57,270 nucleotides of DNA, from positions 1 through 57,270 of the forward strand of contig CANQXF010000015.1 in NCBI GenBank assembly GCA_947627695.1, given 5' to 3'. Of the stretch, positions 3,852 to 26,356 are shown in pieces (position 1 is the first letter of the stretch; the number at the start of each line of letters is the position of its first letter). The notes beneath the pieces were generated by a model. It did not search any database. It was not told where the DNA came from and saw only the letters and a program-made list of their open reading frames with translations. A program made the translations under genes and the position numbers. The stretch comes from an uncultured Ruminiclostridium sp. (GTDB taxonomy: Bacteria > Bacillota > Clostridia > Oscillospirales > Ruminococcaceae).

Positions 3852-3852
3852 G

Positions 3853-6896: not shown

Positions 6897-6940
6897 AAAG
6901 AGGAACAGTCATAAGCTGTTCCTCTTTGATTTTTTGTTTT
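6897..6940. terminator. Bidirectional terminator after the galactoside operon
   Basis: A 12-bp perfect stem (6897-6908 with 6916-6927), loop of 7, T-rich tail on the plus strand and A-rich flank for the minus strand. It also ends the XRE gene that finishes at 6939. Confidence 0.85.
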
Positions 6941-7232
6941 ATTTCTTATTCTTTTTTCTCAGCGTGTCTGCGATCATCATAATCAGCCGCACATCATCGT
7001 CGCTGAGGTCTGAAACGTCTATCAGTTTTTTATGCTCCACTCCCAGCAGATGATCTGTTGTGGTATGAAAGATCTGCGCCAGCTTTGCCAGTATTTCAGG
7101 CGACGGAGTCCTCTCCCTCAGCTCGTAGTACGACACCACCGATTTAGTGACGCTAAGCCTTTTCGCAAGCTCTTCCTGCGTCATACTCGCCTGCTTTCTT
7201 AACGCCTTGAGATTATCTCCAAAGTTGACCAT
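6939..7232 (-). CDS. XRE-family transcriptional regulator (first of a pair)
   Basis: 97 residues. A Cro/C1-type helix-turn-helix fills residues about 5-62 (LKALRKQASMTQEELAKRL, then VTKSVVSYYE as the recognition helix, then LAKLAQIFHTTTDHLLG). The short C-terminal helix (LSDDDVRLIMMIADTLRKK) may dimerise. The start has GGAGG about 7 bases upstream. It is a paralogue of the next gene in the same orientation, with a 134-bp gap, so each probably has its own promoter. A 9-bp inverted repeat lies upstream. Its target is not shown by the sequence; self-regulation is the simplest inference. Confidence 0.85.
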   Translation of the reverse strand: MVNFGDNLKALRKQASMTQEELAKRLSVTKSVVSYYELRERTPSPEILAKLAQIFHTTTDHLLGVEHKKLIDVSDLSDDDVRLIMMIADTLRKKNKK

Positions 7233-7366: not shown

Positions 7367-7666
7367 TCAGTCCTTGTCGTTCATCACCCGCAAAAGCCCT
7401 GCAAAAGCCGCTATCTGCCGATCCGTCAGTCCGCTTGCGTCCAGCGCCGAGTCGGGCGGGGGAGCCTGTTTTCCCAGCAGATAGTCTGTGCTGCAATTGT
7501 AAAGATATGCCAGCTGGAGCAGCACCTCGGTGCTTGGCGTCCGTTCACCCGTTTCATAGCCGGAAACCACCGAGGGGGAAACCTTCAGCTTTGCCGCCGT
7601 TTCCTTCTGGGAGTATCCGTATTTCAGTCTTAGCTTTTTCAGCTTTTCAGGAAGTCCTTTTATCAT
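7367..7666 (-). CDS. XRE-family transcriptional regulator (second of a pair)
   Basis: 99 residues. The helix-turn-helix covers about residues 6-65 (LRLKYGYSQKETAAKL, VSPSVVSGYETGERTPS, then LAYLYNCSTDYLLG). The C-terminal segment (LTDRQIAAFAGLLRVMNDKD) resembles that of the neighbouring paralogue. The start has AGGTG 8 bases upstream. It is divergent from the giant surface protein gene, with 247 bp between the two starts. The shared region carries two inverted copies of a motif, one near this gene's own start and one over the -35 box of the giant gene, which suggests that it represses itself and controls the surface protein. Confidence 0.85.
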   Translation of the reverse strand: MIKGLPEKLKKLRLKYGYSQKETAAKLKVSPSVVSGYETGERTPSTEVLLQLAYLYNCSTDYLLGKQAPPPDSALDASGLTDRQIAAFAGLLRVMNDKD

Positions 7667-7845: not shown

Positions 7846-7913
7846 ACGTAACTTTACGACATAAAAATATTGACCGAATTTAATTTTTCTAATTATACAC
7901 AGGAGGAAAAATT

Positions 7914-10900
7914 ATGAAGATTTGGAAACGTGTAACAGCGGCTTTTCTCGCTCTTACCATGCTCGCCACCACCGCCAGGGATTTTCCCCTTTCTCCCGTA
8001 GCGCAGGCGGATGAACCTGCGGGTACGGCGGCTTCTGATATTACTTGGGAAAAATATCAGCAAAACATCAACGCAACAACAAGCAGAAGATTGTTTTGGA
8101 GATATGACAGTGGACCGGTTGGAAGTATAAAATCCTACAACCAGATACATGTCTTTGCCTTTGCGGGGGAAACTATATGCTTCGGCAGCAATGTAAACAA
8201 AGCTGCATCGGGAAGAGATATTGTATTGATAGACCTTCAAGGTAAGGAAACATATTTTGACATTGCGGAAACAATCGGCGCTCAGGGTCTTATTTCCGAT
8301 CCGTACTATGAATATCTCGCAAAAACTATGACCTCCAAAAACGGAAAAACAGGTGTTGACCCGACCGATTACACAACAATGATAAAAGACGGCACCGCAG
8401 GTGACGCTAATAAGGATTCCGAAGGAAATGTTCATAATAGTGGTGTCACTAAAACCTACACGCCCTTTACCTACGAAGTAAAAGAAACGGGTGTATACAC
8501 CTTTGAGTTCAGAGTTGGCAGTGGCGCTACTAACGGACCGTCTTATGTAGGCACAGGAAGAATTAAACAGAATAAAACAGACATAGAGAGAAATGCAAAT
8601 ACTACAAATAATGCTTGGTTCTGGTACAATCCAAATGCAACTACAAACAAATATGTTGAAGGAAACCTTAGTTCAGAGCAGAAAGAAAATTATCCATACA
8701 TTGTTCAGGTAACTTTTAATACAGGCGGATATACAAATGATTCATCGAAAAATTACAATATAAGTTCAATTTCTGCATACTACAAACCTATGCCATCAGA
8801 CCCCAACAATTTTTATTGTCGTACAGATGCCAGCGGAAACGTTATGACGGCAAGTAATGGACGGGAAATAAATAAAGACGCCCTTTGGGATCAGACGAAA
8901 CAGGCTGAGGTCTCCGCTTGGGACATCAAAGTCTTTGACGAATATGATCGTGAAAAAACAGGCCGCACCTACTGCGATTTTATGGCTCTCCAGTCAAGCG
9001 GAAATATCATTGAGACCGTTTATGTTCTTACCAATGACAGTTATATCTATCAAGTAGATTTCAATCAATGCGCCCCCTATACCTTTACCTTTTTCTCCAA
9101 CAACAGAGGTATAGTTGACAGCGCCACAGGCAATATTCTTTATAAATCTGTAAAGGCATTAAGTAACAATTGGAGCAATGATTATGAAGGTGTATTTGGC
9201 GTGCACGGCTTTACCTTTAAGCAGCCCTCCTCTACCGATACAGAACTTGAAAAGACTTTTAAAATATTCTTTGAAAAGCCGAATGATGACCTTTTAGGTC
9301 ACTTATATACAACAGCCCGTGCGCCCGAAGCCCCCACAAACATAAAATTTTACACCACTCTGCCTGACGGAATTGACTTGCCTGAGGGTGGCGGAAAATC
9401 TGATAGCACGCCCGGCAGTTATGTCGGTATGGGCGGCTATTTTTCCTTTGAAGTAAAAGAAGCCACCACCGCTACTCTGCGCCTTGAGTTTAAAGGAAAA
9501 CTGAAGGACTTTGTCCCTGTGGAAATTTCCGATATCGTCACGCCAAATTCCACCAACTATTTCTACTGGGACGGCAGAGACGGCAACGGAACAATTATAC
9601 CTGAAGGCGTATATAGCACTGATGATTTTTCATATTCCGTTCTTACCAAGTCGGGCGAGATACATTTTCCTATTTTGGATATGGAGCAAGCGCCAAAAGG
9701 CATAACAATAACAAGAATCAGCGATATATATGACGCTGATGGTAACAATTTATGTGAAGATCCAAACTCAATATATGAAAAAACAAAAAGTGTAGTATAT
9801 TATGACGAATCCGATATATATTATGGCGGAAAAATAGGTTCTTCTGCCACATCGACCGAAGAAAACGTTGATGTATGGGGTCATGCAACGTATGGCACAA
9901 GTACATATAAAGATACTGATTCATTGGGCAACACTTATTATAAGTATCGAAACTTGCAAAATTCAATAGTAAGTAGTGTGACCTATTATGGAGAAGAATA
10001 TCTTTATAATGCATATGCAAAAGATCGCAAATTAAGGATAGGCGATCACAGTCATTTAAGCAACCCGATAGATTATTCCGGAACTTCGACAGACACAGAC
10101 CTGCAAAATAAGCTTATAGACTTTCTGGACAGCAAAAAACACCCGGTAGGTGTGAGCAGTTCTAATGGTGCTAGTGGTGGATATTATCAAACCACCACCG
10201 ACTACGCCATCGCCAACTACTGGACCTTTACTCCCTCCTCCTTATCTTCGCCGATTAGCGACGATGAAAATACAGTCACGATCGTTAATCCCGAAGCGTC
10301 GGACAAGGGTATTTTCAACCTGCGCTCTTTTGTCTTCTATGATGAAACAAGCGACGGCAAATACGACCCGAAAGCCGGTGAAGACCACGCTCTCCAAGGC
10401 GTCACCTTAAATGTTTATAAAAAGCATACTTCCGGTGAAAATGAAAGCGACGGCGTCTATGCCGTTTATGATGAAACGTCAAATGCATTGACCAAATATT
10501 CAAATTGGACTGAAGTTACAGCTGCCGGAAAACAAAACGACGCTTATGACCTTGTTTCCACCGCTGCCACCGCCCTTACAGGCGAACACGTTTTCACCAA
10601 CCTTGAATATGACACAAAAACCGGCACCGACTACGTTCTTGAGGTTGTAAGACCTGACACTAACTATAAATTAACCACTAACGCAATCGGCAGAACAAAT
10701 ACCGACACATACACATATACCGACACGAAAACCAACGGTACGGAAATACAGAAATTTACTGTCGGCGGAAGTGGTCTTACGCCTGATGAAGCTAAAATGA
10801 ACACCCTCTCTGCCGCTGACGTAGGGTATTATTTTGATACTCCCGACCAGACGTTAGTTGTACAGAAAACTTATAAAATAGATTCTGCCAAGGATGAAAA

Positions 10901-13900
10901 AGAGCCTCTCTATACCTTCCTGGAGTTGTCTTATACCACAGTGGACAGCAATAAAGATACTGTTTACGGTCAATGTGTCATAAGCTCAGCAGACCAGTAT
11001 AAGCACTCCTATCCTTTCCTGCCCCAAGTAATAAATCCTCCTTATGATTCGGCAATTACAGAGACTGTGCAGGATTATTATGTTTCCGCCGAATATTACA
11101 TCGTTCCGAGAAAAGAGACGAGCAGCGGCAAAACATTGTTCAGAATTTGGAAGCACGTTTTCAATTATAATGATTATAGCAGTTCATATATAAACTCCCT
11201 CAGCACAGATGTATATTACTATGATATAAAGGCGGAAAATCTTGACGCTAACGGAGACGGCGTTATAGATTATGAAACGCTGTTCGGACCGTTAGGTGAC
11301 GAAACAAACGACGGGATCCCCGATTTGAATAAGATCCCTTATAAAACGGCGGAATCTACTGCCGATTCTGTTGCATTTACAAAAGTCGAGGACAAAGACG
11401 AAATTCAGCCCCCCTTTATTGCCACTATCGACAGAACAAGAGGCACTGCCGAAATAACTATAAACGTCACCAACAGCAACCTCGGCGGAACTCTTGAGAT
11501 ACTCAAGGTGGATTCCAACAGCGTAGATGAACATGGTGTTTTAAAGAGCGACTATACACCGCTTGAGGGCGCTACCTTTAAATTGTTCGATGAAAAAGCG
11601 GAAGACGTAAAAAAATTTGAAGAACAATCTAAAGGCACTGATGAAACGAAGAAGCAGGAAGCGATCAATTGGCTTACAACTCATCAGATCGGTATGTCCA
11701 CCACCGAGGCAAACGGTCAGATAATCTTTACAGGTCTTTCCTTGGATGCAGGCAAGACCTACACCGTTAAAGAGATATACGCTCCGGACGGCGGTTACAC
11801 CTGGGACGAACAGTATGTAGAGGTAACAGCGGCAGAAATACAAAGTTCAACAAATGCTTACAAACAGCTTGTACTTACCAATTTTATACCCAGTGAAGAT
11901 TTAACATTCACCAAAACCATAAACGGCAGAGGCTGGATCAACACATCTGAAGGTTCAACCACATACCTTGACAGCTTTGATTTTAGTATAGAACTTAAAA
12001 GTGCTACAAGTGAAGCAGGCGTTGACATTGCTGAAGATTCTATCTCTGCATTAAAGGAAACTTTTAGTAAAACAACGATAAAAGTAACTGAAGAATCAGG
12101 CGGCAAAGGTACAACTTCTCACGACAGAACGCTGACTACCAACATACCCAAAAATCTTTTCGGAGGATTTAACGAAGCATTAAGCAAGGAAAAAATAACA
12201 TTCCCCGAGTCAGGCACATATACGTTTGAGATAAAGGAAAAAGATATTGATACTGGCAATCCGCTGTATAAAGGTACAAGCGGGGAATCCAATATTGAAA
12301 AATCAGAAGCTGTATATTCGGTTTCTGTAAAGATAACTGTTGATGGCGGTAATTATACTTGTGAACTTGGAGAGGTAAAGCGTACCCTAAACGGAAAAGA
12401 TACTACTATCAAGAACGGTAATATTCTTTTTACAAACAAGTATACCGTAGAAGAGTTCGACTCCGAGACTAAATATATAATAACCAAGACGCTGACAGGA
12501 CGTCCGGATGGCAAATGGTTGCCCGATGATAGTTTTGCTTTTAACATAGAGGGTAATGATAAAAATACCATAGATGCTATGCTTGAAGGCAAAATAACGT
12601 TTCAAACTCTTCTTGGCAGCAGTCATAAAGATGGTGATCCCTATCCTCAAAAGTACACTGTATATACTAATGAAAAAAACAAATCCGTTGGAATAGGCGA
12701 AATAGATTTTAAAGATATTAGCTTTGAAACGTCAGAAGGTGTACCGACCCCTGTTGTCTATACCTTTAAAATTTCAGAAGAAAACGGCGGGAAAGCAGGC
12801 ATAGATTATGCCGACACTGTTTATTACCTGAAAGCTACTTTAAAGTGCGAACATCTGAATAATGAAATATCAGAGATCCAGTACGATGTTTACAAAGACA
12901 ATTTAGAAGGAGAACCCATAGGCACTTGCCATGTCTACCCGAAAGACAGTACAGAAAAAGACAGCCACAAAGAAGAATCCCACACCTTCTCTTTCAACAA
13001 CACATACAGCGCAACCCAAACCTGGTCTCCTACCGTCACCAAACAGCTTAACGGGCGTGATTGGTATGAAAAAGATGAATTCCAATTTGAAATTAAGCTT
13101 ACTAATTCTTCAGCAGACGGTGGCGCTTTTATAAGCAGTGGATCTGTCACGATCACAAATGCAACAACAGCCCATAAAGCAACCCTCGGAACAGTAACCT
13201 TCAAACAGCAAGGCTACTATACCTTCAGCATAAACGAAACAAGCACAACAGCAGGTATAGAAAACGGTGCGTCAAAAACGATCACAGTCTATGCTAAAGA
13301 TAATAATGAAGGCGGATTTGATTTAACGTTTTACGAAGGTGAGGTAAATGCCTCAACTTCTGCAAAAACTACGTTGCCTGAACACGAAAACTTCACCTTC
13401 GTAAACACATACAGCGAAAGCGGTTCTATTTCTTTCAACATTGAAAAGACGCTTCAAGGCAGAAAATGGGCGTCCGATAATTTTACGTTCACCATAACCC
13501 CTGATAAAGAGACTTTTAGCAAAATAAACCAACCAAATTCGCCTATCACGATAACAGAACCCACACATGGTGGCGAAGGTCCTGATGCCCATAATGATAA
13601 TTACGATTATGACAGCACAACAGGCGTTATCACACTCAGCGTTTCAGGCACTGGTGACGCAGGCAAAGCCTTCACTGAGACGTTATCCAAAGTAATCAAT
13701 TTTAACGCTGCAACCGAAGAAGGCAAACCATACATATTCACCATCACAGAAACATCAGGCACAGACAACATAGAATATGACACCACCAAATATGAAGTTA
13801 CCGTAACCGTAACACGTGAGATAAGCAAAACAACAAATCTCCCCACCGGTAATCTTCTCGTCTTGGCCTCATACGTTGTTGCAGATTCATCGGATAGTGG

Positions 13901-16900
13901 AACAAAAGACGCCTCTATCACCCTCCCATTCACCAACAAAGCCTACGTTGATCAGTCTCTAACTGTCATCAAAGACCTCCAGGATAGGAACTGGGCGGAT
14001 AGCGATACTTTCACTGCAACTGTAAAATTGTCTGTTTCAGGCGATACGAAGGAAGATAACGTAAAACTGTTAGACAGCACATCTAAACCTACAACTATAT
14101 CTACAACGCTTGATTTCACAAGTACAAATCACGAAGTAACTAACACTTTCCGCTTCTACGCCCCAGGCACCTACACCTTTACAATAAAGGAAAATGAAGG
14201 TTCTGCCGACGGCATAACCTATGACGCAAACACTTACACATGGACAGTGACGGTAACAGATGACGGAAACGGAAATCTTGTTGCAACAACCAACATCTCC
14301 GACAACAAAATCACTATCACCAACACCTATACTACTGAAAAATCGTTCGACATTTCCAAGGAATTTACAGGCAGAATAAACAATGAAACATATGCGATTG
14401 ATAATCATTGGCTGACAGGCGATAAATTCACTTTCACCATTACGGCTGATGGCGAAGAAACAGAAAAAGCATTTGAAAACGGTCAGATGTTTTTCACAGA
14501 TTTGTCGAAAGAAACCGATACCAAAACCGTTACTATTTCATCGGAAACAGACGGTCACAAGGTAACCATTCCCCTCGGTTTCACTAACCTTGAATTTACA
14601 ACCGACAAGAAAGAGTACACATTCACCCTCAAAATAACCGAGGATTCTCCTAAAGAGAAGTACGGCATATCTTACGACGAGTCTGTCCACACTATCACTT
14701 TCACCGTTACAGAAGACCCAACGTCTAAAACGTATGTGATCACACCTTCTACTGAGACAATAACAGTCAAAAACACATACAGCGCCAAATCTGTTTCCGC
14801 CGAATTTTCTCTCAAGAAGGAGCTTACAGGCAGACCTTGGAATGATGATGATTCCTTTACGTTCAACATTGTGCCTAAAGAGCTTACATCAGGCGAAACG
14901 GTAACTTCAGAGGTATCAGGCTCTGGCGACCACATCGGCAAATTTGATCTCAAATTTGAGAAAGCAGGTACTTACACCTACACAATTTCTGAAGAAGAAG
15001 GTGAAATTGGCGGTGTAGACTATGACACTACCCATAACTACACCCTTACCGTTGTAGTTAAAGATAACGAGAAGGGCAATTTGATAATTGAATCAGCAGA
15101 AGTCAATGAGACTGCCTTGACTGTTTCTGCTCCAAACACCAACCCCGACGGCAGTTACAAATACACTTTCGATTCTTCCAACAATCTTTATTTCACCAAC
15201 GCCTATACCGCAGGCTCTGCAAGTATGCAGTCAGAAGACCTGTATTGGATATGGGTAGAAAAGATAATCAGCGGCAGAGAGTGGAAAACAGGAGAGCCCG
15301 AAGAGCAGTATAAATTTACCATAAAAGCCGCTGACAAGACAACACAACAAGCCGTAGATGATGAAAACATTCAGTTTATAAGCGGTAATTCTAAAAAAGA
15401 AACAGCAGATAGCACACTTCGTACAAGTGTATCTGTCAGCACAGATGATACAAAGATCAAAGAAGGCAGACACATTGACAGCCTTAGAATTTACTTTAAG
15501 GACATAACCTTCGAGTCAGATGAAGGAAATGTTTACACCTTTGATATTTCGGAAGCAAAGGATACCCCTCTCAAAGGTGGTATCACTTATGATGATACCA
15601 CATATCGTGTAGAACTCCTTGTCACCGACAACGAAAACAGTAAGGGCGAGTCAAAGCCTGACGGCATAGTGGAAGTAGCGGTTGATTCAGTAACCAAAAT
15701 CAATGGCAGTCAGACAACAGAATATTCGTGTGAAACGCATGACGATACAAAGCACAACAAAGCAATAATCCTTCCTTTCACCAACACCTATGATTCAAAA
15801 GGCGATTGGACTTTCACTATTTCCAAAACTCTGACAGGAAGACCTTGGGCGACTGATGAAACCTTTAACTTTGACCTGACTTTGAGCGATTACACGCCCG
15901 ATAAAAACGCAACGGACGAGTACTCAAAAGCAAATTATAAAGAGCCTCAACCGATGTCGCTTAGCGTTGCTGCGCCCTCTTCCGGTGGTAATGAATCTAC
16001 GATCAACGGCACCGTTACATTCAACGAACCCGGAACGTATGAATTCACCCTTACAGAAAAAACCGATACGATCGAAGATCAGGGCATAACCACCACCCCG
16101 TCCAGCGGTTACAAAATAACCGTTGAAGTGACCGATAATATGGACGGAAAGCTTTCAGCCCAGGTCGCAAGCTATACAATGGGTGGTACTGAAACAAAAG
16201 TTGAATCCACGTTCGACAACATATTCAACTTCACGAACGCATATGCCGCTGACGGCACACTTACTCTTTCCGTCGAAAAAATGATAAAGGGAAGAGCGTG
16301 GCAGGAATTTGACACATTTGATTTCACTATAGAAGCCTACGGCGATACTATTGACAAAGTCGGTGCTGATGGTGAAAAGGGCAAGTATGTGATCATGCCC
16401 GATGACCAAACGGCAACCGTAAAATATGATGGCACATCTGACCACAAAGCCGACTTTGGTGCGATCACATTCAAATCCAACGGCACAGTGGGAACGTATT
16501 ACTATCAGTTCAAAGTATCCGAAACCGTTCCCGAGGGCGCAGTAGACGGCGTATATTACAACGGTCTGACTTACAGCAAGCCCTATATTGTCACAGTTTC
16601 AGTTACCGACAACGGAAAAGGCAGCTTGAGCGCTGTGGTTACAAGCGTTGCACCTGAGGACTCGGAACCTATTTCCACTCCGTCAAACACCATAACCTTT
16701 ACCAACACCTATGCCGCATCAGGTACGCTTGAAAAAATAGACGTAACTAAGGTTCTTAAAGGCAGAAACTGGCTTACAGGCGGAGAATCGTTCAGCTTTG
16801 ATATTCAGCTTGTTGATAAAGACGGAAACCCGGTAACATCAGATTATGTTACCGTTCCCTCCGCCTTGACCATTACAAGCAGCACTGCAACGGAAAACGA

Positions 16901-19900
16901 AGAAGTTAAAGACAGCTTTGGAGCAACGTCGTTTGTCTATGCTCAGGACGAATACGGCACAAACTCAAAGAAAACCTATTACTTCAAAATCACCGAAGTC
17001 CAGCCCACAGCCGCCGACGGTTACACAGTAACGAAAGACAGCTACAGCAAAAACGTATTCAAAGGCGTTACCTACGACAATAAGGTATATATAGTTGAAG
17101 TAGAGGTTACTCATGATTACAAAGGCAAACTTACAGCTGAAATAGTCAGCCCGACCGATGGCATAGTATTCACTAACGAATACAATGCAGCGGCGGTATG
17201 GCAGCCCACTGTCAGCAAAACCTTTACAGGCAGAAAGTCAGGCTGGCTTGAAACCGACAGCTTTGCCTTTGATATCACTGTATCAGATGATACTGACAAC
17301 ACTATCACAAACGCAAAGCAAATCGTTTCCGTTTCCAAGGGAACTGAAACAAGCGACACATACCGCAGCAATTTTGGTGAAATAACCTTTACCAAGCCCG
17401 GCACATTCACCTTTACGGTAAACGAAGCCCAGCCTGAAGCCGCTGGCGATTATGAAGTAACGAAAGCCGGCGACGGCAAAAATGTATTCAAGGGCATTAC
17501 CTATGACAATACGGAATACACCTTGACTGTAACAGTCACCGACAATTTTGACGGCACTCTCAGCTACACTGTTACCAGTGACAGTGAAAAATTTGTAGCC
17601 AACGGCGAAAATACGCAGCTGAAATTCACAAACGTTTACAACGCTTATGGCGAATGGACGCCGCAGGTAAAGAAACAGCTTACAGGCAGAGATTGGCTGA
17701 AAGTAGGCGATATCAAAGGAGAGTCTCCTCTTGCTGAACGTGAAAGCTACGAATTTTCCGTCAAGTTTGCAGAATCTTCTGATGCAAGCGTAACCCTTCC
17801 CGCTAACCTCACTGTTGATAAACCCGACACACCTGTTTCATTTGAATCCGTTAAATTCACAAAGCCGGGTTCGTTCACCTTCACCGTTCAGGAAGAAAAA
17901 CCTGCCGACATTACAGGTAATGTTTTTGAGGGAATAGCGTATTCCGAAAAGATCTACACCGTCACAGCAAAAGTCACCGACAACAACGACGGCACGCTGA
18001 CAATAGACACATCGGCGGTTGACGAAGCAAAAGAGAAAGCCGAAGAGCCCTACACCTTTGTAAACAGCTACACAGCAACTGGTACGCTTACAAAGTCTAT
18101 AAGCATATCCAAGACCTTGCTTGACAGGATATGGCACAAAACCGAGAGCTTTACCTTTGACGTCACCCCCGCTGAAAATGCTAAAGCTGCCGTTGACGGC
18201 GGAATGATAACTCTCCCCAAGGTAGGAGCAGAGATTTTCGGCGACGATGATCTGGGCAACAAGCAAACAGGATACGCAAACGACATCTCATTCCTTAAAG
18301 ATGAGGATCATCAGTTAAAGGACGGAACATATTCTTTCATCATAAGCGAAACAGTTCCCGATGATGCAAAAGACGTTGACGGTAAAAAGGTATATCTGGG
18401 CATTTCCTACGACCTGTCGCAATACAAGGTAGAAATTCAGGTGACAGACCTTCACAACGGCAATATCAAAGCCGAAGTCACCAGCATTACCAAGGTAGGC
18501 GGGACAGGTGAGCCTGTTGAAATAGCCTTCGTCAACGATTACGACCCGTCAGGCGTATGGCCTCCCGTCATCAGCAAAACAATTGACGGCAGAGATTGGC
18601 TGTACGATTACAAAAATATCAACGGCGAAATGATAACCGATAGATTTAATTTTACAGTCGAACTTGCAGACGAACAGAGAGACGGCATAGATAAAAACAA
18701 TGTTGATTTTAACAACAATAATCTTTCCGTTGACAAAAAAACTGTTGACAAGGACAATAACCCCACGTACGATGGCGAAACAAACAGCGTCATCGCTCAG
18801 TTTAAGGACATAACCTTTACCAAGGACGGCGTTTACAGATTTGTGGTAAAGGAAACGGGAACGGACGAAAACGGTATGACCCTTTCAAAGGTCGTCTACA
18901 CAATGGATGTTACAGTCAAGGACGATGAAGAGGGTCTCCTCACTCCTGTTGATTTTACAGTCACCGACGACAGCGGAAACCTCGTGATCTACGATGAAGA
19001 GAATCCGCTTTCTTTCGTAAATACTTATCAGGCGACTACCGAATTAAGCAAAATTACCGTTTCCAAGACTCTGAACGGCAGAAACTGGCTGAAAACAGGC
19101 AATACATTCGGAAGCGGCACAGCCAGCGAAGATGAGAGCTTTGATTTCACCTTATCTCTTGCGGAAGGGCATACAGCGGATAACGCCGATTATATTGAAC
19201 TCCCCGAAAATATATCCGTAATCGGAACAACCGAGGGAACTCCTTACACCAAAACCTTTGGCAACGTAACGTTCCATTCCAACGGCAAAGAAGTCAACGA
19301 TTACGCCATAGAGGTAAGCGAGGTTATCCCCGACGGCATAACACCTGTTGACGGCAAGTACGTACAAAACGGACTCACCTATGACAGTAAGAAATATACC
19401 GTTGACCTCAAGGTAAAAGACGACTTTCTGGGAAATCTCACCGTTGAAGTTGACAACAAGGACGTATTCAACGGTCTGTCTTTCGTGAACGATTATAGCG
19501 CACAGGGTATAATTTCAGGCATAACCGTTAACAAGACCCTTGAGGGCAGACAGTGGAGCGACAAGGACAAATTTAACTTTGAACTTTCCGTTTCCGAAAA
19601 GCCTGACGGCTCCTCAGTTTCCTTTGACAACAACGGCGTTAAGGAAGCTGTCGGCAAGCTGACCATAACCAAAGGTATTGACGTTTCATACACATACATC
19701 GGTGTTTTCGGAGACATAACAGTTGACGAGCCGGGCGATTATGAATTTACCTTAAAGGAAGTCAGCAACACTTCAGACGGCACTCTGTATGACGAAAAAA
19801 CCTGCACCATAACCGCAAAAGCCGTTGACAACAACGACGGCACGATCACGATAACCGAAGTCAACGGAGCTGACGACCTCAGCTTTACCAACAAAGCTTA

Positions 19901-22900
19901 CGTTGACTCTCAGCTTACCGTTATCAAGGATCTTCATGGCAGAGCGTGGTCCGATACTGACAGCTTTACCGCCACTCTTACGCTGACAAAGGACGGATCA
20001 AGCACCGACGACGTAAAGCTTAAAACGCAGTCAGGCGAAACAGACGTACCCGACTCTCTCACCTTTACACAAACAGCTCCCAGCACTCAGCTTCCTCTGC
20101 GTTTCTATCAGCCCGGAGTTTATACCTTCACGATTAAGGAAACGGCGGGAAGCGCCGCAGGTCTGACCTACGACGGCAGCGTGCATACCTGGACGGTGAC
20201 CGTTGATGATAACGACGGGCAGCTGGAAATAACCGACTCCACAGTGGACGGCAAGAACGGCGCACTTTCAGCGGACACCATTTCCATTGTAAATACCTAT
20301 AAATATTCCGATAAGATCACAATATCCAAGGACTTTATTGGAAGAGCCGAAGATAAATGGCTGTATACCGACAAATTCACCTTTGACGTCAAAGCGGATA
20401 AGGATACGGAAAAATATTTCGACGAAGGCGTACTTGCCTTTGACGGAAGATATGCAAAGGGCGTTTCTTCTGCCGAAGCGGTAATTTCCGCCGCCGACAG
20501 CATAAAGTCGGTGGATATCCCTCTTGATATCACAAATCTTGACTTTACTTCCGCTGATAAGTATAATTTCACCTTCCTTGTAAGCGAACAGTCAACGCCC
20601 GATAACGGCATAGCTTACAGCAAGGCGGTATACAAGGTGACATTCACAGTTACAGAAAACTCAGACAAGACCTACAACGTCACAAAGGTAATTTCAGTCA
20701 GCGAAAATGCGGACGATAATTATGCGCCTGCCGATGATATTGTCTTTAAGAATATCTATACGGCCAAGCCCGTTACTGCGTTTATAAATATTTATAAACA
20801 GCTTACAGGTGCGTCATGGGACGACCTTAAAGACAGCTTCGTATTTACGGCCGATCCAAGCGAGGATAATCCCGAAAGCGGAGCGACCGTTAAAAACGGC
20901 AGCATAAACGCTCAGTCCGATAAAATACCCACAGCTGATACTCTGCGCAAGGGAAATATGTCCGTAGAATTTACCAAAGCTGGCGAATATGAATTCACCA
21001 TAAAGGAAAAATCAGGCTCAAACGACGGTATACTCTACGATAACAAACACACATATCAGCTTGTTGTAAAGGTGGAGGACAACGACAGCGGCAATCTTGC
21101 CATAACGTCTCTCACCATTGACGGCGAGGAGTATATAAGCGGTGCAGACGGCGTTATCAACTCCGTTTCCGTTACTGACGAAGACGTATTCTTCACCAAC
21201 GGCTATCACGCCGAAGCAGAACTTTCGGGAATTACCGCCGTCAAGCTGCTTAAGGGCAGAGATTGGAAAAACAGCGATGAAAGCTTTAGCTTCACGATCG
21301 CTCCCGCTGACGATTATACAGAAAACGAAGCGGGCAAGACCGTTATTATTCCCGACCCCGCATCAGCAAACGAGGACAATAACGGCAAAGCGCTGTTTGA
21401 CGCTTTGAAATTCGTATCAGACGGCAAGGAAACGCATATCTACAAATTCACCGTTTCCGAGATAGTTCCCGGCGGAGTGATCAACAGGACCGACAAGGGA
21501 CTTACTTATTCTGACAAAACCTACGACGTTTACGTCAAGGTGACCGACCGGTTCAACGGTCACATGACTGCGGAATTTGTTGACAAGGACGGAAACTCGC
21601 TTGCAGATCAGCAGCTTTCTCTTGATTTCACCAACGAGTACGTTTCGTCAGGAAAATGGAGCTTCTCCGTTACCGAGAACTTTATCGGAAGACCCTGGAT
21701 AAGCGCCGACGTATTCAATTACGATATTGCGGTTGAAACGGAAGTGCCCGACGGTCTGACGGTGACTGTTCCCGACAGTATGCATATATCAATGCCCGCA
21801 CCTTCAAATACTGCGGGAATTGCAGCAGCGTCCGCTGTTAAGACTCAGCACAGCGCCGACTATGCGGCAGACTTTGACAAGACTGCGCAATATTCCTTCA
21901 CCAAGCCCGGAGAATACACCTTTACCATAACCCAGAAAAAGGACTTCAGGAGCAAACAGCTTTCGGATTACGGAATTTCCTTTGACGATACTGTTTATGA
22001 AGTAACGGTGCAGGTGACCGACGACAACGAGGGAAAACTTAACGCTGAGATAACAAAGCTGCTTATTGACGGAAAACCTGTTGACGATATTGACGCATAC
22101 GGCGACAGCTTTGCTTTCACCAACACCTATTCAGCCACAACCACATGGAATATGTCGGTGGAAAAGCAGATAGACGGCAGAGAGTGGAAAAACATCAAGG
22201 ACTATCCCGACAGCCCTGACGATTTTGAATTTACTATCGAGGCTTACGGCGATGAAACGATACAGGCAGTCAAGGACGGAACGATAACTGTTGCAAACGG
22301 CAAAACCAACATCACCGCCCAGACTCCCATTCATACCTCATCGTTCGGCAACATCACTTTCAATTCAAACGGTACGGTGGGCAGCATTTATTACAGCTTC
22401 ATTATCAGGGAAACCACGCCCTCCGATACAAAGGGACTTACTTACAGCAAGCCTTATATAGTAACGTTTGAAGTGACCGACGACGGCGAAGGTACTCTTA
22501 CCGCCGTTGTCACCGACGTGCTTCAGGAGGGAACAAAGCAAAAGGGCGATTATACAGTAAACGGCAATTCCGTTACCGTTACCTTCACCAACACATATGC
22601 CGCCAACGGCTCCCTTTCCGAAAACTCCATAAGCGCAGCAAAGGTATTGACAGGCAGAGAATGGCTCGGCATTGAGGGTGTATTCACCGATTTCTTTACC
22701 TTTGCCCTGAAGCCCGACCTTGAAGATGCCATTACCGCCGACGCTTTCAGAAGCGGACTTATCAAACTGAACGGCGATACGGTAACTGTTACCGATGAAA
22801 CTGCCGAACATAAAGATTACTTCGGCAGTATCGACTTTAAATCTAATGGACAGAAAACCACCGTTTACACCTTCAAGCTGAGTGAGATAATATCCAAAGG

Positions 22901-25900
22901 CTATGAAAAGGAATATAGCATAGATTACGATGACGCTGTATTCACTGTCAAGGTGGAAGTTACCGACAATTACGACGGAACGCTTTCCGCAAAGATTATC
23001 AGCGGTGCAGAAGCCGAGTTTACCAACGAGTATACCGCCTCGGGCGTATGGCCTCCCGTTGTGAACAAGGTAATTGATGGAAGAGAATGGCTCGCTGACG
23101 ACAAGTTTACCTTTAAGATCGCTCTTGATGAGGAAAATTCCGATTATCCCGTAGTAATAACCCAAGATACTCTGACGATCGGAAAAGATGATCTTGACAC
23201 AACAACAGGTCTTTACACAAAACAGTTTGAAGATATCATCTTCTCAAAGCCCGGCAATTACTTCTTCACAGTATCCGAAGAAAAAGGCCAGGCAGGCGGA
23301 CTCACCTATTCCGACACCGAATACTATATGTACGTCAGGGTAGTCGACGAGGAGAACAAGGGAACGCTTGTACCTTACATTTACTTTGCGATCCCTCAGA
23401 ACTCTGTTCCTGCCATAACAGGTAGTGAAGTGGGAATTGAGAAAGCGCTTTCTTTCGTAAACACATACAGCGCAACTGCAACCCTTGACAAGATCGAGGT
23501 TTCCAAAAAGCTAACAGGCAGAGACTGGCTGAAGCAGGGCGATACCACAGGAAAAACCGTTCTTACCGAGGACGAAAGCTACAAGTTCGCCATTACCGCC
23601 GCAGACGAATACACCTCAGCGGCAGTAAACAGAAAGGATATTGTCCTCCCCGCTGACGTCAGCATTTCGGGAGCTTCCGACGGCGCAATATACAAAGCGC
23701 TCTTCGACGGTATCATCTTCAACTCAAACGGTAACCGTACCAACAATTATACCTTTGAGATAAGGGAAAAAATTCCCGCCGACAAGGAAAAGCTCGGCGG
23801 CGTTGAGTATGACAAGAGCGTTTATACTGTAAAGGTGACCGTCACCGACGACTTTAAAGGCAAGCTCACCCTGAACGCCGAAATACCCGACAATATCCTG
23901 TTCACCAACGTCTATACTTCCACTGGAACAATAGAAAAAGGTGAAATAAAGGTATCCAAGACCTTGACAGGCAGACCTTGGCAGGCTGACGACAAGTTTG
24001 AATTTGAGATAAAGAATACCGTAAAACCCGCAAATTCAACCGTCACAATTGCAGACGAGGGCAAGTTCATCATAGAAAAGGGTGCAGACATTGGCGATAC
24101 CTTTACAGACGCATTCGGCGACATCACCTTTGACGAGCCCGGCGAGTATGAATTTGAGATAAGAGAGATAAACAACGGCGAACCAAGCGGCATAGACTAC
24201 GACGATACGGTCTACACCGTCAAGGTATCCGTTTCCGACAATTACGACGGCACTCTCACAGCCGTTGTAACAGGCGCCGACAACATCTCCTTTACCAACA
24301 AATACCACGCCGAAGCTGCCTCAGCCGAGATAAACTTTACCAAAAAGGTAACAGGCAGACATTGGGAGAAAGGCGAAGCATTCGCCTTCAGACTTGAAGC
24401 CGCCGATACCTTAACTCAGCAGGCGATAGACAGCAATCTGGTAATTCTCCCCGACAATGCCGAAATGACCCTTACAGGTGACGGCATAAAGGACGAGATG
24501 ACTTCTGCCTTCGGAGCAATAAAGTTTAATTCCGACGGAAAGTCCGAAACAACGTACAAATTCAACGTAACGGAAGAAAAAGGCACACGCGGCGGACTTA
24601 CTTACGACGAAACCGTTTATACCGTGACCGCAGTCGTAAAGGACGATTTCAAGGGCAAGCTCACCGCAGAGCTTTCAGGCGCTGAGAATATCCTGTTCAC
24701 CAACACCTACGCCGCCGCAGGCTCACTTGCCGACAATGCGATAAGCGCTTCCAAGGTATTGACAGGCAGAGAATGGCTTGACAACGACCTTGTAAAGGAC
24801 GGCTTCACGTTTGTTATCCAGCCTTACGGCGACACCGTAAACGCAGTTGGCAAAACGGTATTTATGCCCAAGAACACCGAGATAATCGTTACCGACAAGA
24901 ACGACCCCAAGGTGTTCTTTGAGAAGATAGACTTCAAGTCCGACGGAGAGAGAACAGCCGAGTACAAATTCAAAGTGACCGAACAAAACACGCAGGCGTC
25001 AGGTATCGACTACGACACCTCCGAATACGTCATTACCGTGACCGTGTACGACGATTACAACGGCGCTTTAACAGCGGAAGTCACCGATATTTCCAAGGAC
25101 GGCGAGCCTGTCGAAAGCATAGTATTTACTAATGATTACTCCGCTTACGGAATATGGCCTCCCGTTGTGGATAAGGTGATAGACGGCAGAAAGTGGCTTG
25201 ACAGCGATAGCTTTACGTTTAAGATAACCCTTACTTACGAGGAAGTTGAAAACAGCGTAAATATGCCTGATGACAATACCGTTGATGTCACTGCGTCCGA
25301 TAACAAGGACGGCAAATACGCCGCGCAGTTTGACAACATAACCTTTACAAAGCCCGGTCTGTATATATTCGAGGTAAGCGAAGAAATCGGCAAAACGCCG
25401 GGGCTCACCTACGACACGACTGTGTACGAAATGTACGTTGACGTTTCCGACGACGGAATGGGCAGGCTGACGCCGAAAGTGGTGAGAGTCATTGATCAGC
25501 AAGGAAATGATTTTGACTACGGTCATATCAACAACCTCACCTTCACCAATAAGTATAATGCCGTTGGAACTCTTGAAGCGGGAGGAATAACCGTCAGCAA
25601 GCTCCTTGACGGCAGAGAATGGCTTGACAGCGACAGCTTTAAGTTTACCATAGCTCCCGCAGAGGATTACGGCAGCAACGTGGAAATTGTCGAAAACAGT
25701 ATCACGATAAGCGGTACAGACAGCGAAAAGACCTCCTCCTTCGGAAATATCACCTTCCGCAAGGCGGGAACTTACAGATTCAACATCTCCGAAGCAAGCG
25801 GAGATGTCCCGAATATCACATATGATACTTCCGTCTACACCGTGACGGTGGAGGCAACGGACAACTACGACGGAACGCTTGCCGTTAACGTAACAGGCAG

Positions 25901-26294
25901 CAGCGCCTTTACGTTCACCAACACCTTTGTTCCCGATGAAACTTCTTCAGAGGAGACAGCGCCTCCTTCCGAGGAAAGCACGACTCCTCCCGAGGAAACT
26001 ACTTCTGACGAAGTCACAACTCCTCCCGAGGAAACTACTTCCGATGAAGCTACAACTCCTCCCGAGGAAACTACTTCCGACGAAGTCACAACCCCTCCCG
26101 AAGAAACAACACCTCCTCCCGTGACAACCACTGACAACAACAGGGTAGACGGGGAAGATGACGAGAACAACAAGCCTGACGACAATGTGAACACAGGCAC
26201 GCCTCTTGACGCAGGCGCATTTGCGGCGGCTTCCGTACTGCTTGCAGCGCTTATCCCAACGCTGAACAGGCGTAAAAACAAAAAGAACAAATAA
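7914..26294 (+). CDS. Giant wall-anchored surface protein with 31 isopeptide domains
   Basis: 6126 residues. Signal peptide 1-32 (cut after AQA). Residues 33 to about 795 are a head I cannot assign, with a WDGRDGNG turn near 549 typical of FlgD-like Ig folds. An SdrD-like domain starts near 797 (SFVFYDETSDGKYD) and a SpaA/CnaB-like domain near 1190 with Lys (LEILKVD), Glu (YTVKEI) and Asn (LTNF). Residues 1330-6005 are 31 FctA/Spy0128-type domains of about 150 residues, each opening with a K-x-L-x-G-R-x-W-like motif, with Glu in a Y-x-F-x-I-x-E strand and Asn in a final F-x-N-x-Y. In this family Lys and Asn form an isopeptide bond with Glu as catalyst. A P/E/T/S-rich repeat, NVNTGT (6091-6096), a hydrophobic segment and RRKNKKNK follow: a non-LPXTG sorting signal. 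Strong AGGAGG site. Likely an adhesin stalk. Confidence 0.92.
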   Translation: MKIWKRVTAAFLALTMLATTARDFPLSPVAQADEPAGTAASDITWEKYQQNINATTSRRLFWRYDSGPVGSIKSYNQIHVFAFAGETICFGSNVNKAASGRDIVLIDLQGKETYFDIAETIGAQGLISDPYYEYLAKTMTSKNGKTGVDPTDYTTMIKDGTAGDANKDSEGNVHNSGVTKTYTPFTYEVKETGVYTFEFRVGSGATNGPSYVGTGRIKQNKTDIERNANTTNNAWFWYNPNATTNKYVEGNLSSEQKENYPYIVQVTFNTGGYTNDSSKNYNISSISAYYKPMPSDPNNFYCRTDASGNVMTASNGREINKDALWDQTKQAEVSAWDIKVFDEYDREKTGRTYCDFMALQSSGNIIETVYVLTNDSYIYQVDFNQCAPYTFTFFSNNRGIVDSATGNILYKSVKALSNNWSNDYEGVFGVHGFTFKQPSSTDTELEKTFKIFFEKPNDDLLGHLYTTARAPEAPTNIKFYTTLPDGIDLPEGGGKSDSTPGSYVGMGGYFSFEVKEATTATLRLEFKGKLKDFVPVEISDIVTPNSTNYFYWDGRDGNGTIIPEGVYSTDDFSYSVLTKSGEIHFPILDMEQAPKGITITRISDIYDADGNNLCEDPNSIYEKTKSVVYYDESDIYYGGKIGSSATSTEENVDVWGHATYGTSTYKDTDSLGNTYYKYRNLQNSIVSSVTYYGEEYLYNAYAKDRKLRIGDHSHLSNPIDYSGTSTDTDLQNKLIDFLDSKKHPVGVSSSNGASGGYYQTTTDYAIANYWTFTPSSLSSPISDDENTVTIVNPEASDKGIFNLRSFVFYDETSDGKYDPKAGEDHALQGVTLNVYKKHTSGENESDGVYAVYDETSNALTKYSNWTEVTAAGKQNDAYDLVSTAATALTGEHVFTNLEYDTKTGTDYVLEVVRPDTNYKLTTNAIGRTNTDTYTYTDTKTNGTEIQKFTVGGSGLTPDEAKMNTLSAADVGYYFDTPDQTLVVQKTYKIDSAKDEKEPLYTFLELSYTTVDSNKDTVYGQCVISSADQYKHSYPFLPQVINPPYDSAITETVQDYYVSAEYYIVPRKETSSGKTLFRIWKHVFNYNDYSSSYINSLSTDVYYYDIKAENLDANGDGVIDYETLFGPLGDETNDGIPDLNKIPYKTAESTADSVAFTKVEDKDEIQPPFIATIDRTRGTAEITINVTNSNLGGTLEILKVDSNSVDEHGVLKSDYTPLEGATFKLFDEKAEDVKKFEEQSKGTDETKKQEAINWLTTHQIGMSTTEANGQIIFTGLSLDAGKTYTVKEIYAPDGGYTWDEQYVEVTAAEIQSSTNAYKQLVLTNFIPSEDLTFTKTINGRGWINTSEGSTTYLDSFDFSIELKSATSEAGVDIAEDSISALKETFSKTTIKVTEESGGKGTTSHDRTLTTNIPKNLFGGFNEALSKEKITFPESGTYTFEIKEKDIDTGNPLYKGTSGESNIEKSEAVYSVSVKITVDGGNYTCELGEVKRTLNGKDTTIKNGNILFTNKYTVEEFDSETKYIITKTLTGRPDGKWLPDDSFAFNIEGNDKNTIDAMLEGKITFQTLLGSSHKDGDPYPQKYTVYTNEKNKSVGIGEIDFKDISFETSEGVPTPVVYTFKISEENGGKAGIDYADTVYYLKATLKCEHLNNEISEIQYDVYKDNLEGEPIGTCHVYPKDSTEKDSHKEESHTFSFNNTYSATQTWSPTVTKQLNGRDWYEKDEFQFEIKLTNSSADGGAFISSGSVTITNATTAHKATLGTVTFKQQGYYTFSINETSTTAGIENGASKTITVYAKDNNEGGFDLTFYEGEVNASTSAKTTLPEHENFTFVNTYSESGSISFNIEKTLQGRKWASDNFTFTITPDKETFSKINQPNSPITITEPTHGGEGPDAHNDNYDYDSTTGVITLSVSGTGDAGKAFTETLSKVINFNAATEEGKPYIFTITETSGTDNIEYDTTKYEVTVTVTREISKTTNLPTGNLLVLASYVVADSSDSGTKDASITLPFTNKAYVDQSLTVIKDLQDRNWADSDTFTATVKLSVSGDTKEDNVKLLDSTSKPTTISTTLDFTSTNHEVTNTFRFYAPGTYTFTIKENEGSADGITYDANTYTWTVTVTDDGNGNLVATTNISDNKITITNTYTTEKSFDISKEFTGRINNETYAIDNHWLTGDKFTFTITADGEETEKAFENGQMFFTDLSKETDTKTVTISSETDGHKVTIPLGFTNLEFTTDKKEYTFTLKITEDSPKEKYGISYDESVHTITFTVTEDPTSKTYVITPSTETITVKNTYSAKSVSAEFSLKKELTGRPWNDDDSFTFNIVPKELTSGETVTSEVSGSGDHIGKFDLKFEKAGTYTYTISEEEGEIGGVDYDTTHNYTLTVVVKDNEKGNLIIESAEVNETALTVSAPNTNPDGSYKYTFDSSNNLYFTNAYTAGSASMQSEDLYWIWVEKIISGREWKTGEPEEQYKFTIKAADKTTQQAVDDENIQFISGNSKKETADSTLRTSVSVSTDDTKIKEGRHIDSLRIYFKDITFESDEGNVYTFDISEAKDTPLKGGITYDDTTYRVELLVTDNENSKGESKPDGIVEVAVDSVTKINGSQTTEYSCETHDDTKHNKAIILPFTNTYDSKGDWTFTISKTLTGRPWATDETFNFDLTLSDYTPDKNATDEYSKANYKEPQPMSLSVAAPSSGGNESTINGTVTFNEPGTYEFTLTEKTDTIEDQGITTTPSSGYKITVEVTDNMDGKLSAQVASYTMGGTETKVESTFDNIFNFTNAYAADGTLTLSVEKMIKGRAWQEFDTFDFTIEAYGDTIDKVGADGEKGKYVIMPDDQTATVKYDGTSDHKADFGAITFKSNGTVGTYYYQFKVSETVPEGAVDGVYYNGLTYSKPYIVTVSVTDNGKGSLSAVVTSVAPEDSEPISTPSNTITFTNTYAASGTLEKIDVTKVLKGRNWLTGGESFSFDIQLVDKDGNPVTSDYVTVPSALTITSSTATENEEVKDSFGATSFVYAQDEYGTNSKKTYYFKITEVQPTAADGYTVTKDSYSKNVFKGVTYDNKVYIVEVEVTHDYKGKLTAEIVSPTDGIVFTNEYNAAAVWQPTVSKTFTGRKSGWLETDSFAFDITVSDDTDNTITNAKQIVSVSKGTETSDTYRSNFGEITFTKPGTFTFTVNEAQPEAAGDYEVTKAGDGKNVFKGITYDNTEYTLTVTVTDNFDGTLSYTVTSDSEKFVANGENTQLKFTNVYNAYGEWTPQVKKQLTGRDWLKVGDIKGESPLAERESYEFSVKFAESSDASVTLPANLTVDKPDTPVSFESVKFTKPGSFTFTVQEEKPADITGNVFEGIAYSEKIYTVTAKVTDNNDGTLTIDTSAVDEAKEKAEEPYTFVNSYTATGTLTKSISISKTLLDRIWHKTESFTFDVTPAENAKAAVDGGMITLPKVGAEIFGDDDLGNKQTGYANDISFLKDEDHQLKDGTYSFIISETVPDDAKDVDGKKVYLGISYDLSQYKVEIQVTDLHNGNIKAEVTSITKVGGTGEPVEIAFVNDYDPSGVWPPVISKTIDGRDWLYDYKNINGEMITDRFNFTVELADEQRDGIDKNNVDFNNNNLSVDKKTVDKDNNPTYDGETNSVIAQFKDITFTKDGVYRFVVKETGTDENGMTLSKVVYTMDVTVKDDEEGLLTPVDFTVTDDSGNLVIYDEENPLSFVNTYQATTELSKITVSKTLNGRNWLKTGNTFGSGTASEDESFDFTLSLAEGHTADNADYIELPENISVIGTTEGTPYTKTFGNVTFHSNGKEVNDYAIEVSEVIPDGITPVDGKYVQNGLTYDSKKYTVDLKVKDDFLGNLTVEVDNKDVFNGLSFVNDYSAQGIISGITVNKTLEGRQWSDKDKFNFELSVSEKPDGSSVSFDNNGVKEAVGKLTITKGIDVSYTYIGVFGDITVDEPGDYEFTLKEVSNTSDGTLYDEKTCTITAKAVDNNDGTITITEVNGADDLSFTNKAYVDSQLTVIKDLHGRAWSDTDSFTATLTLTKDGSSTDDVKLKTQSGETDVPDSLTFTQTAPSTQLPLRFYQPGVYTFTIKETAGSAAGLTYDGSVHTWTVTVDDNDGQLEITDSTVDGKNGALSADTISIVNTYKYSDKITISKDFIGRAEDKWLYTDKFTFDVKADKDTEKYFDEGVLAFDGRYAKGVSSAEAVISAADSIKSVDIPLDITNLDFTSADKYNFTFLVSEQSTPDNGIAYSKAVYKVTFTVTENSDKTYNVTKVISVSENADDNYAPADDIVFKNIYTAKPVTAFINIYKQLTGASWDDLKDSFVFTADPSEDNPESGATVKNGSINAQSDKIPTADTLRKGNMSVEFTKAGEYEFTIKEKSGSNDGILYDNKHTYQLVVKVEDNDSGNLAITSLTIDGEEYISGADGVINSVSVTDEDVFFTNGYHAEAELSGITAVKLLKGRDWKNSDESFSFTIAPADDYTENEAGKTVIIPDPASANEDNNGKALFDALKFVSDGKETHIYKFTVSEIVPGGVINRTDKGLTYSDKTYDVYVKVTDRFNGHMTAEFVDKDGNSLADQQLSLDFTNEYVSSGKWSFSVTENFIGRPWISADVFNYDIAVETEVPDGLTVTVPDSMHISMPAPSNTAGIAAASAVKTQHSADYAADFDKTAQYSFTKPGEYTFTITQKKDFRSKQLSDYGISFDDTVYEVTVQVTDDNEGKLNAEITKLLIDGKPVDDIDAYGDSFAFTNTYSATTTWNMSVEKQIDGREWKNIKDYPDSPDDFEFTIEAYGDETIQAVKDGTITVANGKTNITAQTPIHTSSFGNITFNSNGTVGSIYYSFIIRETTPSDTKGLTYSKPYIVTFEVTDDGEGTLTAVVTDVLQEGTKQKGDYTVNGNSVTVTFTNTYAANGSLSENSISAAKVLTGREWLGIEGVFTDFFTFALKPDLEDAITADAFRSGLIKLNGDTVTVTDETAEHKDYFGSIDFKSNGQKTTVYTFKLSEIISKGYEKEYSIDYDDAVFTVKVEVTDNYDGTLSAKIISGAEAEFTNEYTASGVWPPVVNKVIDGREWLADDKFTFKIALDEENSDYPVVITQDTLTIGKDDLDTTTGLYTKQFEDIIFSKPGNYFFTVSEEKGQAGGLTYSDTEYYMYVRVVDEENKGTLVPYIYFAIPQNSVPAITGSEVGIEKALSFVNTYSATATLDKIEVSKKLTGRDWLKQGDTTGKTVLTEDESYKFAITAADEYTSAAVNRKDIVLPADVSISGASDGAIYKALFDGIIFNSNGNRTNNYTFEIREKIPADKEKLGGVEYDKSVYTVKVTVTDDFKGKLTLNAEIPDNILFTNVYTSTGTIEKGEIKVSKTLTGRPWQADDKFEFEIKNTVKPANSTVTIADEGKFIIEKGADIGDTFTDAFGDITFDEPGEYEFEIREINNGEPSGIDYDDTVYTVKVSVSDNYDGTLTAVVTGADNISFTNKYHAEAASAEINFTKKVTGRHWEKGEAFAFRLEAADTLTQQAIDSNLVILPDNAEMTLTGDGIKDEMTSAFGAIKFNSDGKSETTYKFNVTEEKGTRGGLTYDETVYTVTAVVKDDFKGKLTAELSGAENILFTNTYAAAGSLADNAISASKVLTGREWLDNDLVKDGFTFVIQPYGDTVNAVGKTVFMPKNTEIIVTDKNDPKVFFEKIDFKSDGERTAEYKFKVTEQNTQASGIDYDTSEYVITVTVYDDYNGALTAEVTDISKDGEPVESIVFTNDYSAYGIWPPVVDKVIDGRKWLDSDSFTFKITLTYEEVENSVNMPDDNTVDVTASDNKDGKYAAQFDNITFTKPGLYIFEVSEEIGKTPGLTYDTTVYEMYVDVSDDGMGRLTPKVVRVIDQQGNDFDYGHINNLTFTNKYNAVGTLEAGGITVSKLLDGREWLDSDSFKFTIAPAEDYGSNVEIVENSITISGTDSEKTSSFGNITFRKAGTYRFNISEASGDVPNITYDTSVYTVTVEATDNYDGTLAVNVTGSSAFTFTNTFVPDETSSEETAPPSEESTTPPEETTSDEVTTPPEETTSDEATTPPEETTSDEVTTPPEETTPPPVTTTDNNRVDGEDDENNKPDDNVNTGTPLDAGAFAAASVLLAALIPTLNRRKNKKNK
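11890..25935 (+). repeat. Array of 31 FctA-type domain repeats
   Basis: Tandem coding repeats of about 450 bp, diverged at DNA level. Counting the K...GR.W openings gives 31. Thirty keep the Lys, Glu and Asn of the isopeptide triad. Domain 22 (about 21650-22125) has Glu4588 for Lys and Gln4674 for Glu. Domains 5-10 match domains 18-23 one for one, and domains 14-17 match 24-27, so the array grew partly by block duplication. Domains 2, 6, 12 and 19 carry insertions between GR and W. Confidence 0.88.
25980..26123 (+). repeat. 36-bp tandem repeats in the wall-spanning tail
   Basis: Four units of 36 bp, the first three encoding TTPPEETTSDEV or TTPPEETTSDEA and the last TTPPEETTPPPV. The region is Pro/Glu/Thr-rich, as expected of a segment that crosses the peptidoglycan. 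The near-identical units are prone to slippage, so copy number may vary between strains. Confidence 0.85.
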
Positions 26295-26299
26295 CACAA

Positions 26300-26334
26300 A
26301 AAACGACAGGTAAAAAACGACCTGTCGTTTTTTT
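26300..26334 (+). terminator. Terminator of the giant gene
   Basis: Stem of about 12 bp (26300-26311 with 26320-26331), 8-base loop, followed by a run of T. Confidence 0.88.
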
Positions 26335-26356
26335 GTACTGTCTTGCGGATATTTTG

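Follow-up and report, generated by a model that had tools for sequence, protein, structure and literature searches.

The window, the complete 57,270-nucleotide contig CANQXF010000015.1 of an uncultured Ruminiclostridium sp., carries at positions 7914 to 26294 of the forward strand one uninterrupted reading frame of 6126 codons. It starts with ATG and is preceded by a Shine-Dalgarno-like AGGAGG at 7901-7906 (by eye). The encoded giant protein has the layout of a single-chain fibrillar adhesin, i.e. signal peptide, N-terminal head, repeat stalk and wall-anchor-like end in one chain; signal peptide and anchor were identified by eye from the translation, without a predictor. We consider it probable from sequence and structure models that it is a sortase-anchored fibrillar adhesin and the self-stalked twin of a shorter, pilus-type protein. 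The evidence comprises the architecture, the Lys-Glu-Asn triads and the fold of the stalk domains, an orthologue in a second genome of the genus (G028), a split in sorting signals between long and short forms and a coupled loss of Lys and Glu.

The chain would be secreted, cut at NVNTG and linked to the wall. In 30 of its 31 Spy0128-like domains a Lys-Asn bond would connect first and last strand with the assistance of Glu. The locked domains would make the stalk thin, resistant to proteases and almost inextensible, and the stalk would hold the head at a distance from the wall. The features are listed below; ratios of nonsynonymous to synonymous substitution rates (dN/dS) are from the comparison of the window with G028 throughout.

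7914-26294, plus strand: gene of the 6126-amino-acid single-chain surface protein (reading frame and translation; ribosome-binding site by eye)
7914-8015, plus strand: signal peptide, residues 1-34, boundary approximate (by eye, begins MKIWKRVTAAFLALTMLATTA; dN/dS 0.15)
8016-9323, plus strand: outer head, residues 35-470, without Pfam match
9324-10286, plus strand: head, residues 471-791, weak match to an FN3-like fold that carries a long insertion
10299-10838, plus strand: SdrD B-like domain, residues 796-975
11484-11888, plus strand: SpaA prealbumin-like domain, residues 1191-1325 (PF17802, E 1.9e-7)
11889-13946, plus strand: neck, FctA domains D1-D4, which correspond in position to those of the short forms
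13947-25931, plus strand: extended stalk, FctA domains D5-D31 (Pfam stretches, domain comparisons)
21645-22133, plus strand: D22, the sole domain to lack Lys and Glu (reads E,Q,N; profile alignment; dN/dS 0.13)
25932-26183, plus strand: Pro/Thr/Glu-rich linker with 36-bp repeats
26184-26291, plus strand: putative sorting signal of NVNTG, hydrophobic stretch and basic tail RRKNKKNK (by eye)
26299-26336, plus strand: terminator-like hairpin and T-run 3' of the stop codon (by eye)
6939-7232, minus strand: helix-turn-helix (HTH)-like regulator, 97 amino acids, divergent, kept in G028 (HTH by eye; context)
7367-7666, minus strand: second HTH-like regulator, 99 amino acids, divergent (HTH by eye; context)

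The stalk domains, their triads and their constraint

The initial annotation had described one frame with a signal peptide, 31 FctA/Spy0128-type domains and a wall anchor. This was upheld by the translation and by PF12892, and residues 1-1325 with the head, the SdrD B-like and the SpaA domain, absent from that description, were added. In the profile searches that had been proposed, PF12892 (FctA) matched 12 and 19 stretches in the two halves of the protein (E 1.4e-136 and 9e-299), 31 in total, and TIGR03786 matched 9 and 17, 26 in total. A six-frame Pfam search listed 30 of the 31 domains, D1 being the one not listed. By profile alignment the triad of Lys, Glu and Asn is present in 30 domains as claimed (the Lys of D1 by eye), and the exception is D22 with Glu, Gln and Asn. 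An AlphaFold model of three neighbouring domains, D28-D30, with a predicted local distance difference test (pLDDT) score of 92 showed a CnaB-like fold matching Spy0128 and FctB; in this one model Lys is located on the first and Asn on the last strand. Spy0128 of Streptococcus pyogenes (3b2m) thus resembles the giant's domains in fold and, in part of the alignment, in the Lys, Glu and Asn motif, yet it has two domains and is a subunit that sortase polymerises, while the giant has 31 domains in one chain and another sorting signal. A PDB search with the sequence of the first half by itself yielded no matches; one with the domain profile did. The domain profile also matched sodium channel beta-4 and glutamate receptors weakly (E 0.004 at best); like the zero-stretch Pfam matches PF22091 and PF24306, these were set aside as chance or composition.

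FctA domains were pooled from head-bearing proteins and from headless FctA proteins of the same or related genomes, giving 624 clusters; 441 were scored, while 177 in which one of the three positions was gapped were dropped, as were 6 without the G-R motif. Lys and Glu were both present in 419 domains, Lys without Glu in 0, Glu without Lys in 4 and neither in 18 (Fisher p 2e-28, counted per domain cluster and not as independent events on a tree). All 18 domains had Gln in place of Glu and retained Asn, and the lost Lys was substituted by A, S, T, V, E, D or N. The same four classes held 328, 0, 3 and 17 of the 348 domains scored in 77 head-bearing sequences (147 dropped for gaps, 3 for other reasons) and 91, 0, 1 and 1 domains in 15 sequences without a strong head (30 and 3 dropped). 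The simplest reading of these alignments is that Lys and Glu act as a unit, as needed for bond formation. Because the modelled fold matches Spy0128 and Lys and Glu are coupled, covalent locking of the stalk, as proposed initially, is likely.

Among other giant FctA proteins 682 of 1341 clusters were scored (639 gap rows and 20 others dropped); 680 were KEN, one KVN and one TEN, with no domain lacking both Lys and Glu. Cross-link-free domains would then, in the simplest reading, be a habit of the head-bearing group. They occur also in L019, L023, L017, L034, L037, P0053, P0054 and others, and some share ordinal positions (2 and 10) across different proteins.

D22 has E, Q and N in the window and in G028 alike and shows no sign of decay with a dN/dS of 0.13. 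Without a cross-link it would be the sole extensible link of the stalk. Whether D22 and the other null domains have a role or are mere leftovers is, in our judgement, evenly balanced. A chain of 31 domains should tolerate one missing bond, the change of Glu to Gln may just relieve a buried charge after loss of Lys, and four domains that lost Lys retained Glu; on the other hand, D22 is among the most constrained domains and its three residues are the same in both species.

Going outwards from the wall, constraint on the stalk loosens, a pattern that an extended fibre would be expected to show: dN/dS was 0.12-0.29 for D22-D31, 0.30-0.59 for D10-D21, 0.40-0.73 for D2-D9 and 1.71 for D1, where dS is low. 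The SpaA and the SdrD-like domain had values of 0.84 and 0.76; those of the neighbouring melibiase and GH2 genes were 0.05 and 0.12. Residues 35-310 of the head are the portion most diverged from G028 (dN/dS 0.61, dN and dS both high). Because dS is high there, an exchange with a divergent allele is suggested.

The head, its short forms and its occurrence

A structure prediction of the head was of medium confidence, mixed along its length (pLDDT 73.2). The first ~440 head residues had no convincing fold match and the outer head lies mostly outside the listed matches, which is not evidence of a new fold. Pfam searches of the protein gave no match to thioester or ester-bond domains; the outer head, as said, is without convincing fold match.

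Head and neck were homologous over ~1000 residues to short pilus-type proteins, as aligned for 51 sequences. Identities were 32-48% in the best segments, compared with 78% in G028. The head family is also borne by proteins of ~2200 residues with PxxGG pilin-type ends, and the window's genome has both forms, its own short paralogue (L028) comprising 2238 amino acids. Like the giant, the short head-bearing proteins (L028 and most of P0007-P0057) consist of head, SpaA domain and about four FctA neck domains; they differ by their PxxGG ends and the absence of the long stalk from the giant with its xxxTG-type end. The giant would accordingly be composed of the short form's head, SpaA domain and D1-D4 neck plus 27 further stalk domains and another sorting signal. 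P0004 (5151 amino acids, on the contig of L040) has the same head with about five FctA-like neck domains, followed by a stalk with the precomputed domains PF19407, PF24547 and PF01345; the type of stalk behind this head thus seems exchangeable. A third FctA protein of the window's genome (contig C4) and of G028 (L027, L030; 2230 and 2136 amino acids) ends with IPDTANEG, which differs from both the xxxTG and the PxxGG signals.

Among 60 genomes of the genus 12 had FctA matches, one of them being that of the window, and the frames listed include ones of 6113, 5645, 5561, 5103, 5095 and 5003 residues. The head core matched in 14 of 394 genomes of the order, 10 strongly and 4 weakly. A scan of genome contigs with two peptide patterns from close relatives, which may have missed distant heads in other hosts, yielded 49 head loci (L034-L082; 47 strong, 2 weak). 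All were titled 'Lapin-...', a count to be read without a background rate of such records, and their labels are uncultured Lachnospiraceae, Oscillospiraceae, Ruminiclostridium, Ruminococcus, Clostridia and one Bacilli. 'Lapin' is French for rabbit, which would make rabbits the presumable source of the samples. The data suggest that the head is a host- or niche-restricted module moving between lineages.

Upstream of the adhesin gene, at 1506-6859 of the window, are GH2, sugar transporter and melibiase genes that are conserved in G028. Between them and the giant gene, and divergent from the latter, are the two small paralogous HTH-like genes, whose identities to their G028 counterparts are 97 and 99%. 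The enzyme and transporter genes would fit a long tether for plant fibre or another microbe in place of the host, with caecal diet or niche explaining the distribution of the head. Yet a Pfam search found no carbohydrate-binding family in the head, and the neighbours may be unrelated to the giant gene because the two divergent regulator genes separate them from it. We regard such a tether as a real but lesser possibility.

Sorting signals, sortases and the history of the array

The anchor of the giant is NVNTG and neither LPXTG nor PxxGG, hence not a pilin-type sorting signal. The NVNTG pattern occurs five times in the genome as compared with three in a reversed control, which says little. For 19 long forms a signal was called by script: 18 were xxxTG and one PxxGG, and the latter (L049) was miscalled, reading PKTG by eye. 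PxxGG is typical of class C sortase substrates, and such a role is suggested here partly by the neighbouring sortases. Out of 49 head loci, 21 short complete and 17 long ones were tested for neighbouring sortases, while 11 were omitted (fragments, weak or in between). Of the 21 short genes 11 had a class-C-type sortase at a distance of up to 5 kb, as opposed to none of the 17 long genes. The type was judged by match length except in L057 (two sortases) and L031 (one sortase), where NCBIfam confirmed it; L077, with such a sortase ~11 kb off, is outside the count. Behind the head gene of L057 come a SpaH/EbpB-like pilin, which ends in LPFTGG and scores under the curated cut-off, and two class C sortases that score above theirs. 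We infer that the short forms are located at pilus tips.

No class C sortase lies beside the giant gene: the window is the whole of contig C15, and the five PF04203 matches of the genome are all on other contigs. One of the contigs (C11) carries tandem sortases (L033, 8847-12209), two identified by Pfam and a third by a small custom profile. Similar groups recur in relatives, and groups of this type may serve xxxTG signals.

Several observations weigh against a self-locking, wall-anchored giant distinct from pili. The profile alignment with Spy0128 covers Glu and Asn but not Lys in its first domain, and Lys aligns only in the second domain, in a weak match (11.9 bits) with Glu out of line. A cruder motif scan gave a less clean coupling, with K/E 310, K/Q 3, x/E 10 and x/Q 15 in the head set (144 rows unclassified) and K/E 267, x/E 12 and x/Q 0 in the other giants (99 unclassified), i.e. 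the same direction as the profile alignment with more noise. The constraint gradient is not monotone, the inner head breaking the trend with dN/dS of 0.26-0.40 for residues 311-860. NVNTG is a putative signal and the window is without sortase. Finally, some sortase adjoins 3 of the 17 giants (L034, L049, L065), the one at L034 resembling the third sortase of the pilus clusters in the shape of its match, and several giant loci end at contig or locus ends.

The L034 sortase is also among the arguments for the giant being a pilus subunit, either polymerised by sortase or placed on a pilus like the short forms. Further ones are the head and neck common to the giant and the PxxGG-type short forms and a class C sortase that adjoins an isopeptide pilin in the window's genome (contig C9). 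We consider this improbable in view of the NVNTG anchor, the prevalence of xxxTG among the long forms, the contig without sortase and the lack of a class-C-type sortase at any of the 17 giants. That the array is an assembly artefact, which the initial annotation had named as the finding that would overturn it, has next to no probability even with repetitive domains and a genome in 67 contigs, because the domains have diverged (mean amino-acid identity 34%, maximum 52%), no 30-mer occurs twice within the gene and G028 encodes a 6106-amino-acid protein whose 31 domains pair one-to-one and in order with those of the giant, as reciprocal best matches at 72-97% identity.

Within the stalk, domains 5-18, 6-19, 7-20, 9-22 and 10-23 are reciprocal best pairs, i.e. 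five pairs at a lag of 13 between D5/D18 and D10/D23. In a permutation test the observed lag score was reached by 16 of 20000 shuffles. These pairs support an old duplication of a 13-domain block within the stalk.

Related systems and implications

Single-gene stalks with a covalent spine, presumed to grow by domain duplication, are described in PMC10619420. An adhesin of Mobiluncus mulieris treated there has 7651 amino acids, with 18 ester domains and 33 isopeptide domains that a Spy0128 query detected. Like the giant it is encoded by a single gene and has an N-terminal adhesion part on a long Ig-like stalk; it differs in having a thioester head and ester-bond domains, whereas the giant has another head and, by Pfam stretches, a stalk of FctA alone. 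According to the same source Cpe0147 of Clostridium perfringens likewise combines an adhesion domain and a covalently cross-linked shaft in one polypeptide, but with far fewer domains (11) and Thr-Gln ester bonds in contrast to the predicted Lys-Asn bonds of the giant. A survey lists FctA among isopeptide domains, which often repeat in the stalks of fibrillar adhesins, and cites Spy0128 domains as inextensible under force (PMC12617251).

Other giant FctA proteins are P0060 (6644 amino acids, 40 domains), P0061 (7998, 50), P0074 (7600, 42) and P0099 of Bifidobacterium sp. LC6 (5137, 30), none of which is among the head matches listed. Many of the giant FctA proteins listed presumably contain VWA domains, going by their accessions. 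P0060 and P0115 (5518 amino acids) have a precomputed PF04203 sortase domain in the same chain. FctA arrays of 50, 42 and 40 domains rule out a record length for the array. Because of these and the 7651-amino-acid Mobiluncus adhesin, the length of the single-chain cross-linked stalk is not new. In the literature searched, with most subscription papers outside it, we came across neither this head nor a head shared by pilus and giant stalk, nor natural domains in which Lys is lost and Gln replaces Glu. What the analysis adds is the head family on pilin-type and giant forms, the coupled loss of Lys and Glu and the 'Lapin' labels of all 49 loci.

The initial annotation had proposed a one-gene alternative to a pilus. 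This stands in so far as one head family is found on short proteins, some of them in pilus clusters, and on self-stalked giants. It does not stand as a replacement: because the genome has a locus with class C sortase and isopeptide pilin, the giant would add to a pilus rather than replace it. The stalk length of about 150 nm given initially is an estimate. We think it unlikely, though worth stating, that a head limited to rabbit-gut bacteria from several families uses two interchangeable platforms, sortase pili and giant self-locking stalks, with cross-link-free domains of the giant stalks selected as fuses that are the only extensible links.

With its head family on a giant stalk as well as a pilin-type protein, the genome offers a natural pair and raises the question why an 18-kb gene is kept in place of a pilus. 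The domains that naturally lack Lys and have Gln for Glu provide a ready set for testing the effect of the cross-link on fibre mechanics. If the head were truly limited to one kind of host, it would be a lead to a host-specific colonisation factor common to unrelated gut bacteria.
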